Source of the DNA: Peristeroidobacter agariperforans
GTDB lineage: Bacteria; Pseudomonadota; Gammaproteobacteria; Steroidobacterales; Steroidobacteraceae
DNA length: 64,000 nucleotides
Reading direction: 5' to 3'
NCBI RefSeq assembly: GCF_004138335.1
Contig: NZ_RYFW01000001.1
Span: 2,294,001 to 2,358,000 of the forward strand
In this document: positions 19,233-30,003 of the stretch, piece by piece
How the letters are laid out: the number at the start of each line of letters is the position of its first letter
Numbering within the stretch: the first letter of the stretch is position 1
Program-made: the position numbers and the translations under genes
The notes under the pieces: generated by a model
What the model was told of the DNA's origin: nothing
Seen by the model: the letters and a program-made list of their open reading frames with translations, nothing else
Database searches by the model: none

Positions 19233-19316
19233 GACAAGGGTCCCAGAGGAAGGGAGTTGTATGGGGAAGGGATGGGGTGGGGGAGGAGTTCCTAAGGCAA
19301 CAGATCCATCCTCTCC

Positions 19317-19440
19317 GGACACCCATCATCCTTCCGTACCTAATTTGGACACCCCATCATCTTTTCGGACACCGGACACCGCACACCGATCGATTCCAAA
19401 GCTCCGGACTTTCTTAAGCTCCCAATTTTGGACACCCACC
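19317..19440 (-). repeat. cluster of GGGTGTCC repeats downstream of the transposase gene
   Basis: On the plus strand GGACACCC or GGACACC occurs at 19317, 19347, 19367, 19374 and 19430 (the last as GGACACCCACC). On the minus strand, which is the strand of the transposase, these read as GGTGGGTGTCC-type copies. Flanks are also partly shared (TTTGGACACCC twice, CATCATC twice). They fill the 314-nt gap between the sugar dehydrogenase start and the transposase stop, which holds no gene. They are probable REP-like elements. Confidence 0.7.
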
Positions 19441-19546
19441 GACGTAAAGCGCCGATGCTGGCAGCCCATCGCTCCACGTCGATGAGCTGAGGGATAGTCA
19501 TTGGTGCGGAGTTCGCGATTGAACTGAAGCGCGGGCGTGGCCGGAA

Positions 19547-20584
19547 CTACGCTTGCTGTAGCCTCCGCGCCGCGTGGATCCCGCGTATCCAGGACTGGCC
19601 CAACTTTCTGGCGTGAGATTGCATGCGCTCGATGCGACCGATGGCGCGTCCGAAGAGATTGCCGCCCGAGCGCATCGTTCGCAGCCACGCCTCAGGCTCG
19701 ATCTGCAATCGAGCGAGAACATGGGGCACATCCTGCCCTGTGGCGCCCCTCCTGCCAGCAGGACGCGTTCGGGCGCTCCAGTCCAGCAGTTGCAAGTAAT
19801 CCTGGAACCTCATCGGAATGCTTGCAGCATTCGAATTGCCCGCCCCGCCAAAGGCAAGCAATGGCGGCTGCGCTGGTACCCGTGGCGGTTGTCTCTTCCG
19901 CGCCCGCGCCGCCTGTTCATGCCGAAGCTGTTGCAAACGTGCATAGATCGAAGTGAACTCGGACTCCTCAGGCGTCGTCGCGATGCCGGCACGTACTGGA
20001 TTAAGATCGACATACGTTATGGCCGTCAACAAGCCGGTCTCATCGAGCAGCGCCTGCGATTTGAATCGGCCTTCCCAAAACCGACCAGTGCATTCATCCT
20101 CGGCATTGGCTCGCCGCGCCAGATATTCGTTCAAGCAACGCATGTACCAGCTGATATCGATCAGTCGCAGCCGCCAGCGCTCGATCAACTCTTCGGCGAT
20201 CATTCGTTCCGCAGTGCTCGCGCGGCCATCGCGCCAACGCTGGATCAACGGTGGCATGCAGAAGAGCTGAGTCCACCTCGTCACGATCTCGTCATGGCTG
20301 AGGCGCGACATCCGCGTGCTATCCACTCGCAGCACGAGATGATAGTGATTGCTCATAATGGCGTACGCGCACAGGTCGATCGAGAACACGTCGGCGAGAT
20401 AGCGCAGACGCTGCAAGACCCAAGCTTTGCGATGCGAGTAGTCCTTGCTTGCATAGGTGTCGTACCCCCAAAGCCAAGCGCGACGCACACATCGCGCGAC
20501 GACGTGGTAGTACGGCGTATCCTCAAGGCAGATGAGCGATTTACGCGGATAGCCCATGACCCGCATCATCGAATGCGGGGTCAT
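19547..20584 (-). CDS. REP-associated tyrosine transposase (RAYT, Y1/HUH family)
   Basis: A 345-residue IS200/IS605-like Y1 transposase. The N-terminal part (RKSLICLEDTPYYHVVARCVRRAWLWG) matches the RAYT entry segment. The metal-binding HUH motif is HYH within AYAIMSNHYHLVLRVD. The likely catalytic tyrosine lies in LTAITYVDLNPVRAGI, the usual Y-x-x-x-NPVRAG context. The C-terminal 110 residues are basic and low in similarity. Start set at 20584 (MTPHSMM); ATGs at 20569, 20566 and 20557 are alternatives, and the longer frame to 20875 is unlike the family. Repeats in opposite orientation lie on both sides (19317-19440 and 20745), the arrangement typical of RAYTs with their REPs. No second transposase or insertion-sequence ends are seen. 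Confidence 0.85.
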   Translation of the reverse strand: MTPHSMMRVMGYPRKSLICLEDTPYYHVVARCVRRAWLWGYDTYASKDYSHRKAWVLQRLRYLADVFSIDLCAYAIMSNHYHLVLRVDSTRMSRLSHDEIVTRWTQLFCMPPLIQRWRDGRASTAERMIAEELIERWRLRLIDISWYMRCLNEYLARRANAEDECTGRFWEGRFKSQALLDETGLLTAITYVDLNPVRAGIATTPEESEFTSIYARLQQLRHEQAARARKRQPPRVPAQPPLLAFGGAGNSNAASIPMRFQDYLQLLDWSARTRPAGRRGATGQDVPHVLARLQIEPEAWLRTMRSGGNLFGRAIGRIERMQSHARKLGQSWIRGIHAARRLQQA

Positions 20585-20744
20585 GTCGTAGATGCTGAAT
20601 AACTGGGCATTTCGGCAAGTATTTAGAGAATAGGACCAGAATCGTACCTGGGGATCTGGACTGAGGCGGGCGTGGATGTCCAGGAAAAAAGCCAGCCGGG
20701 AAGAAATGTCAGGGCGGTCGGTTGGAAGCAGCCAATGGAAATAG

Positions 20745-20754
20745 ATGGGTGTCC
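20745..20754 (+). repeat. GGGTGTCC repeat copy upstream of the transposase
   Basis: ATGGGTGTCC followed by AAGTTCGG, in opposite orientation to the copies downstream of the transposase, so the gene is flanked by inverted copies. It lies 160 nt before the chosen transposase start. Confidence 0.55.
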
Positions 20755-20861
20755 AAGTTCGGCCGTTCAAGTTCGGTCGGCTATCGCCCGAGTCATTCGC
20801 TAGTCGTCCGCGACGCCTCCGCGGAAAACGGCGGCCGGCAACTCCCTGTATCATGGTCGGT

Positions 20862-21179
20862 ATGCCAGACCCCATCCAATTGATCGGTGAGCTGTTGAAT
20901 AAAGTGTCCGCACAGGCGGATGTCCAAGAGAGCCCGGAGTGGTACCTGCGAAGCTACCTGGTCGACTACAAGCGCACGCTGCTGCGAAGGTGGTCGAGCC
21001 AGGAGATCGAGTTCGCGACGGAGGCGTTGATGCGCTTCTGCGCGCAAGCCCTGGACACCCACGGCGCGTTGTATCGAGAGTGCGCGGAGATTGCAGAGGA
21101 GGGAGCGAAGGTGGGTGTCCAACTGAAGGCAGGGGAGGGAGCGAAGGTGGGTGTCCAACTCAAGGCGGAAGGCCGCTGA
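20862..21179 (+). CDS. small hypothetical protein with repeat-derived C-terminus
   Basis: About 105 residues from the ATG at 20862 (an ATG at 20853 is also in frame). The first 80 residues look like a helical soluble domain (IQLIGELLNKVSAQ, EFATEALMRFCAQALDTHGALYRECAEIAEE). The C-terminus is a tandem duplication, EGAKVGVQLKAG then EGAKVGVQLKAE, caused by a 36-nt repeat that contains GTGGGTGTCC. A further inverted copy (GGACACCCAC, 21053-21062) is translated within LDTHGAL. A -10-like TATCAT ends 7 nt before the ATG. I recognise no family. It is divergent from the transposase and could be part of the same mobile unit or a host gene invaded by repeats. Confidence 0.55.
   Translation: MPDPIQLIGELLNKVSAQADVQESPEWYLRSYLVDYKRTLLRRWSSQEIEFATEALMRFCAQALDTHGALYRECAEIAEEGAKVGVQLKAGEGAKVGVQLKAEGR
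21053..21062 (-). repeat. inverted copy of the GTGGGTGTCC repeat inside a coding gene
   Basis: GGACACCCAC on the plus strand, the exact reverse complement of GTGGGTGTCC, within the small gene at 20862-21179 and 48 nt before the first direct copy. The two could pair as a stem in the mRNA. Confidence 0.5.
21098..21166 (+). repeat. 36-nt tandem duplication carrying GTGGGTGTCC
   Basis: Positions 21098-21130 and 21134-21166 are identical except for one base (21125/21161). Each contains GTGGGTGTCC (21111-21120 and 21147-21156). The 36-nt offset keeps the reading frame and adds 12 residues to the encoded protein. Confidence 0.85.
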
Positions 21180-29548: not shown

Positions 29549-30003
29549 GTGAAAGAGAAGACCCTCGCCCGGCCCCATCGCTGCGAAGGAGGAGCTGCCG
29601 CGCTAGGGGGAACTGGGCGCGGTGACCTGCTTACTCTCGCCACTACATAGGCTTCATCCATGCGGGCGAGGGTCTCTCTAAGGCGAGAGATCGTGGTGGG
29701 TGTCCATGTGAGCCCTGGTGCGTGTCCATATAGCCCTCCATATGGCCCCGGTGATGTAAGCCCCCCGCTCCCTGGTGGGTGTCCATGATGAGCCGTGTCC
29801 ATAATGAGCCCCCATGAGCTGGTGGGTGTCCATGTGAGCCCTGCCAGCTGGTGGGTGTCCATGTGAGCCCTGCCATGTGAGCCCTGGTGGGTGTCCATAA
29901 TGCCCGGTGGGTGTCCATAATGCCCATCGCGCAGAGCGCGCCGTCGACGTGAAAAATGCGGGGGATGGGCGCAGGATAGCGATCCCCCGACCGGAGCCTG
30001 CCC
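29549..30003. other. 455-nt non-coding region holding the repeat array
   Basis: No gene is supported here. The middle (29696-29916) is the tandem repeat cluster described separately. The flanks are ordinary GC-rich sequence with several GAGGGTC/GACCCTC-like short stems (29555-29580 and 29665-29690: GGCGAGGGTCTC, AAGACCCTCGCC). The two 12-nt stretches CTCGCC and GGCGAGGGTCT near 29565 and 29667 are inverted copies about 100 nt apart. Confidence 0.5.
29696..29916 (+). repeat. tandem array of GTGGGTGTCCAT repeats
   Basis: Core GTGGGTGTCC occurs at 29696, 29775, 29822, 29851, 29887 and 29907, with a variant GTGCGTGTCC at 29718 and a partial copy at 29794. All are on the plus strand. Most continue as CCATGTGAGCCC or CCATAATGCCC. 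Unit length varies: 29 nt (29822 to 29851), 36 nt (29851 to 29887) and 20 nt (29887 to 29907). The same core flanks the transposase 9-10 kb away. It has no CRISPR-like constant unit with variable spacers and no reading frame. Confidence 0.85.

Follow-up and report, generated by a model that had tools for sequence, protein, structure and literature searches.

Elements of the IS200/IS605 family carry subterminal hairpins and guide sequences. A REP combines a GT[AG]G foot with a hairpin, and the TnpAREP enzymes that have been tested cut near the REP at CT (or CA), according to the portions of PMC8266576 and PMC3733652 on which we draw. De Nocera et al. (2013) described TIRYTs, in which a Y1 gene lies between inverted repeats that are unlike the GTAG REPs; some of these TIRs share GGGGWSAS, and some also occur as dimers or in clusters at other places in the genome (PMC3733652, in part). 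When Quentin et al. (2018) classified 26 TIRYT examples, 20 fell into subclass 2.1 and 6 into subclasses 2.2 and 2.5 (PMC6006769, in part). The same survey defines TnpAY1 subclass 2.3 by NHYH, W then E, and YVDLNP, with a median length of 325 aa and a median HuH-Y distance of 110 residues. In some Chromatiales and Alteromonadales, genes of this subclass are present in over five copies, with no recognisable repeat, and automatic and manual searches, the automatic one looking for hairpins, gave no REP-like sequence for subclasses 2.1 and 2.3 in the part of the survey considered here (PMC6006769).

We analysed a stretch of 64,000 nucleotides of Peristeroidobacter agariperforans DNA (the window) that contains a transposase gene of this kind. 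At the level of sequence, copies of a nine-base word that lacks a hairpin lie on either side of the gene and point outward, the arrangement is conserved around homologous genes, and the word occurs in head-to-tail arrays with a preferred 3' edge. We think it likely that these are traces of a single-gene element based on a HUH/Y1 transposase, which would bind the word, cut at a distance of about 9 nt on its 3' side and rejoin the DNA, duplicating the motif together with its flank. Such a hairpin-less repeat is new for subclass 2.3, for which none is reported in the part of PMC6006769 considered here; it may have been overlooked because it has no hairpin and the automatic search of that survey sought hairpins. 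A search of largely open-access literature by title and abstract, using the letters of the word with 'transposase', did not find the repeat described.

The transposase gene and its motif copies

The features of the window on which the analysis rests are the following; motif copies were located by sequence match.

19293..20830, no strand: lineage-specific module; homology to the related genomes G115 and G106 halts at 19292
19317..19325, minus: motif TGGGTGTCC, outward, downstream of the gene
19347..19380, minus: three degenerate GGACACC copies (19347, 19367, 19374) of the downstream array
19430..19438, minus: motif TGGGTGTCC, outward, the downstream copy nearest the gene
19547..20557, minus: HUH/Y1 transposase gene, 336 aa, with HYH and YVDLNP in the translation
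20673..20681, plus: motif variant TGGATGTCC, outward, upstream of the gene
20746..20754, plus: motif TGGGTGTCC, outward, upstream of the gene
20755..20780, plus: 3' flank of the motif at 20746, in which AAGTTCGG recurs without a motif
21093..21166, plus: 36-bp tandem duplication with TGGGTGTCC at 21112 and 21148, at the 3' end of the ORF at 20868-21179
29690..29926, plus: solo array with six exact copies of TGGGTGTCC (29697, 29776, 29823, 29852, 29888 and 29908)

The preliminary description of this DNA had reported a single-domain HUH/Y1 gene with an HYH motif, five GGACACC copies on its downstream side and the same core in a distant array, and all of these are present in the window, the downstream copies at 19317, 19347, 19367, 19374 and 19430 and the array near 29.7 kb, where degenerate units and short repeated 3' flanks accompany the exact copies. 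It had also placed a single copy in opposite orientation upstream of the gene; the orientation stands, and the number is two (20673 and 20746). Allowing up to one mismatch, GTGGGTGTCC has 18 matches in the window, compared with a mean of 3.27 (sd 1.85, largest 9) in 100 dinucleotide shuffles. Five of the 18 fall inside listed ORFs (18665, 21053, 28477, 28598 and 28768) and need not belong to the system.

The initial M of the 336-aa protein is residue 15 of a 350-aa translation (19550-20599), and the frame is open to 20875. Both the HYH motif and ITYVDLNPVRAG are present, and across 56 aligned rows (350-aa numbering) H85, H87, W175, Y196, N200 and P201 are invariant and E176 is nearly so. With HYH, WE and YVDLNP, a length of 336 aa (published median 325) and 109 residues between H87 and Y196 (published median 110), the window protein fits the description of TnpAY1 subclass 2.3 in the part of PMC6006769 considered here. 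The NCBIfam model for REP-associated tyrosine transposases gave a sub-threshold match (41.4 bits; cut-off, 80), a Pfam search of the window protein gave no match, and Pfam Y1_Tnp matched 12 of the 56 family members, the window protein not being among them. An AlphaFold2 model of the transposase (pLDDT 88.9), compared with the PDB by Foldseek, matched best to 4er8, the E. coli TnpAREP with its REP hairpin bound (E 3.3e-3, probability 1.00); no match reached E < 0.001, and a sequence-profile search of the PDB found no transposase. Invariant catalytic residues and fold match fit a HUH/Y1 nuclease, which is predicted to cut single strands through a 5'-phosphotyrosine link. A second gene copy in the host genome is only 77% identical to the window copy, and thus no recent jump is seen. 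We also note that a plasmid collection holds relatives of the transposase at 40-47% identity on 13 records (e.g. NZ_CP073579 and NZ_AP026896), several of them very large and 7 of the 13 from Pseudoalteromonas.

A genome-wide search for the word, as the preliminary description had proposed, bore out the association: the 7.65-Mb host genome has 63 occurrences of TGGGTGTCC and 19 of the reversed word, and those of TGGGTGTCC cluster at both gene copies with the same mirror orientation. We compared word and reversed-word counts in ten genomes of the genus, including the host genome (G000, 63/19). The excess tracks the gene in most, not all, of them. Like the host, G003 (84/14) and G060 (33/17) carry whole genes, and G115 (24/26) has no excess despite a gene, which a contig end cuts. 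G085 (26/79) holds gene remnants, and no gene of the studied type was found in G044 (26/83), G074 (24/28), G106 (29/35) or G028 (14/20). The exception in the other direction is G096 (61/19), which has the excess and arrays, yet no gene by protein or profile search. Arrays of the same polarity occur at gene-less places in both G003 and G096. Among these, one contig of G003 (C14, 6300-14350 of locus L137) has dense solo motif arrays at several adjacent spots, with no family gene found on the contig, and G096 (C116, L165) has a bipolar array of nine minus and then nine plus exact motifs, with no family gene found in that genome.

The motif at homologous genes

We collected the best 80 of at least 590 relatives of the gene, which, as published for subclass 2.3 (PMC6006769, in part), come mostly from Gammaproteobacteria, and added the two host genes. 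Of these 82 loci, 74 were usable; the eight whose frame is broken or lacks a stop (L012, L030, L037, L058, L065, L066, L072 and L073) were left out of the orientation, flank-repeat, 6-mer, dinucleotide, tree, hairpin and base-bias counts, and sites too close to locus ends were skipped as well. The homologues are mutually related, so gene counts do not represent independent events. The strictly conserved part of the element is nine bases, TGGVTGTCY (in looser form, TGNNTGTCY). Within 600 bp of the 74 genes TGGVTGTCY points outward 192 times (106 upstream, 86 downstream) and inward 8 times (7 upstream, 1 downstream), with outward copies at 59 genes: on both sides at 42, on one side at 17 and on neither at 15. 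At the latter 15 genes we found one-mismatch variants such as TGCCTGTCC, TGACTGTCC and GGGGTGTCC; up to 450 bp from the gene, 53 of these point outward and 11 inward. Upstream of one of the homologues (L070), GGGGTGTCC occurs five times, with three of the four intervals at 91 bp, together with a nine-fold repeat of CCTTTCTGC. The looser TGNNTGTCY gave 220 outward and 7 inward copies within 450 bp at 70 of the 74 genes and was not found within that distance at the other 4.

In 28 of 52 genes the variable dinucleotide of TGNNTGTCY is the same on both sides, compared with 15.3 when shuffled. It also clusters on the protein tree, with 27 changes compared with a mean of 35.6 in 200 shuffles, none of which was as low. 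As the control, we used other types of Y1 gene from related genomes, which had 2 outward copies and 0 inward copies around 13 distinct genes. This set came from 24 weak-match loci, 16 with a Y1 frame and 8 without one by the rule used; two of the 16 were of the studied type (L107 and L108), and the remaining 14 rows represent 13 genes (L093 = L113). The counts support the conclusion that the repeat goes with the transposase and that both the link and the orientation hold around its homologues. Further, the upstream copies lie mostly 27-300 bp from the start codon, where one might look for a site that is bound by a host regulator or serves autoregulation of the transposase gene, rather than for a DNA-processing signal. 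We consider such a role very improbable, given that the downstream copies, mostly 100-310 bp past the stop codon, have the mirror orientation, that arrays occur without the gene, and that a regulator site leaves the fixed-edge duplication of flanks described below unexplained.

The preliminary description had taken GTGG as the start of a REP of the GTRG type and had remarked on the absence of an obvious palindrome. The first part fails and the second was right. The base preceding TGG varies (A 57, G 48 and T 8 in 113 sites), and so GTGG is not part of the conserved word. In 50-nt windows on the two sides of the motif at 101 sites, no general hairpin was found: the mean z was -0.18 and -0.20, close to the -0.13 of random sites, and synthetic hairpins gave -4.59. 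Individual values under -2 occurred at 11% and 9% of the 101 sites, compared with 4% of random sites. We therefore dropped the hairpin beside the motif as a general feature and, with the variable base, GTGG as a REP foot. The sub-threshold NCBIfam match and the resemblance of a gene between inverted repeats to a REPtron speak for a canonical REP system with a GTGG foot, a reading that the missing hairpin and the variable base make scarcely credible. On REP-like sequence near the gene the comparison with subclass 2.3 is mixed: the lack of a hairpin REP agrees with the part of PMC6006769 considered here, whereas for the conserved hairpin-less element no counterpart is reported there. We also rejected guide-like pairing of the variable motif bases with the cut site, since no clear covariation was seen between either of the two variable motif bases and 71 flank positions (largest z 3.2, at -24).

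Compared with the systems introduced above, the TIRYT/TIRtron is the nearest described arrangement, in that outward copies likewise lie on both sides of the gene (here at 42 of 74 genes); unlike there, as far as the part of PMC3733652 considered here goes, a 9-nt word grows into arrays with flank duplication. A GGGGWSAS overlapping the word would need C at +9 and +10, where C stands in only 21 and 22 of 122 sites. With RAYT/REP systems (REPtron, TnpAREP), as partly covered here, the locus shares a related HUH/Y1 enzyme, inverted repeats at the gene and dispersed non-autonomous copies; it differs by having neither foot nor hairpin and by a putative cut that lies about 9 nt beyond the 3' end of the word. 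Like IS608 and ISDra2 of the IS200/IS605 family, the element would use HUH/Y1 chemistry on single-stranded DNA, with recognition apart from the cut site (PMC6006769, PMC8266576, both in part). Unlike that family, it has two mirror-oriented ends, and neither a hairpin in the 50-nt windows beside the motif nor a guide signal was found.

Arrays and their 3' edge

For pairs of neighbouring motifs and for the edges of duplications we used all 80 homologous loci and loci of the host genome, G003 and G060, and for the edges also G096. With duplicated DNA removed, motifs no more than 150 bp apart formed 182 same-strand, 15 divergent and 0 convergent pairs (125, 7 and 0 in the 80 homologous loci alone); before DNA present twice was removed (L138 and L139 repeat L009 and L008), the same-strand and divergent pairs numbered 202 and 17. 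The smallest spacing within 150 bp is 13 bp and the next 17-18 bp. The 15 divergent pairs include two window ORF pairs (21053 and 28477) and one at C10:1028482 (L004 4483); the last was dropped as a mini-element because G115 is about equally long there and differs by substitutions.

Among 211 neighbouring pairs we recognised 93 duplications, and in 44 of these the two copies stop matching 8-10 nt 3' of the motif, compared with 14.5 +/- 3.4 (largest 33 in 2000) when the edge is placed at random within the shared stretch. With one duplication per locus, 23 of 42 have this edge. Tandem arrays in general expand by slippage, and the word might be no more than a recognition site or element end, its arrays being the product of unequal recombination or replication slippage in which the enzyme makes no cut. 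Slippage, however, predicts edges anywhere in the unit, and in outermost pairs with a period of at least 24 (n = 45) the right extent is independent of the period (r = -0.10; left extent, 0.38). Further, the base bias fades at about the place where the shared sequence stops: weaker preferences span -8 to about +19 in 122 sites, with +16 to +19 pyrimidine-rich and A-poor, and beyond +19 an uncorrected p of 0.03-0.04 is seen at +20 and +22 alone. We regard slippage or recombination alone as unlikely on these grounds, and the flank repeats set out below contain points in its favour.

The 3' flank recurs nearby at 43 of 101 nearest sites, compared with 6 for the 5' side, a comparison tilted to the 3' side because further motif copies lie outward; the controls gave 37 of 1170 random places, drawn from all DNA and not from intergenic DNA alone, and 121 of 2020 resampled sequences. 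When flanks were trimmed at adjoining motifs, the counts were 39 (3') and 12 (5') at 99 outermost sites and 55 and 19 at 196 sites. Edge positions from this 8-mer analysis were not used, as under its rule no right edge can lie before +17. In a 6-mer profile of the 196 sites, the 3' flank recurs without a motif over a stretch from about +8 to +18, and 104 separate solo-array sites gave the same profile. Two observations speak for slippage: about half of the motif-less copies keep the 5' flank too, like decayed full units, and the solo-array set shows no clear 3'/5' asymmetry by 8-mers (18 and 12 of 104).

For the single-gene element that we favour, we infer the steps of binding, cutting and rejoining by analogy with HUH/Y1 biochemistry of IS200/IS605 and TnpAREP, as described in part of PMC8266576. 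The enzyme would bind the word where the DNA is single-stranded, probably at replication forks, and the cut by its tyrosine would fall some 9 nt past the word on the 3' side, +16 to +19 being the putative cut region. Joining of the cut end to a break further upstream on the sister strand would duplicate the motif with its 3' flank, repeated rounds would give arrays, and paired divergent arrays could persist without the gene as non-autonomous elements. The transposase thereby gains a concrete candidate substrate and cut distance, and the arrangement suggests that a Y1 transposase can operate from a short linear word.

Host DNA at insertions

Comparison with relatives located two insertions. At the second gene copy, 1,589 bp are missing from G115, where 22 bp separate the aligned flanks. 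The frame of the upstream gene ends 4 bp before the outermost motif, past the BLAST-aligned part, and by eye the closing bases of this gene, GGCGGAGTGA, are found again in the adjoining array unit. At the opposite end, the last right-hand motif and host homology are about 12 nt apart. The second insertion is a mini-array of about 144 bp (L005) that is missing from G115 and G106, where the flanks are 28 bp and 13 bp apart; at this site 83 bp are present in G074, compared with 174 bp in the host genome. Its right-hand motif abuts sequence common to G106, and the first ten bases past that motif, 9 of 10 identical in G106, recur inside the array. No target-site duplication was recognised by eye. 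The two insertions suggest that the duplicated 3' flank can be host DNA at the insertion point.

Here host DNA seems to be the material from which repeat arrays are made, which hints at how such repeats may arise. We put forward as a possible, more tentative reading that the enzyme is an array builder, which would recognise the linear 9-nt word, make a fixed cut 8-10 nt downstream in any DNA and turn a stretch of host DNA into head-to-tail units. Were this so, host sequence, including the ends of host genes, would join a growing repeat family, and tandem repeats would be born along an enzymatic pathway dedicated to this.

Two further places in the window differ from the relatives. Where the host has the array at 29.7 kb, G115 and G106 have about one degenerate unit, and in the small host ORF at 20868-21179, a neighbour of the transposase gene, the 36-bp in-frame duplication alters the C-terminus of the protein relative to the single motif-less unit of G115. 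Beyond the window module, homology resumes at 20831 (G115) or 20845 (G106). The module lacks a clean empty site, because the place is filled by other DNA in G115 (about 2.6 kb) and G106 (about 8.6 kb) and by a spacer of about 190 bp in G074; the site looks like a hotspot.
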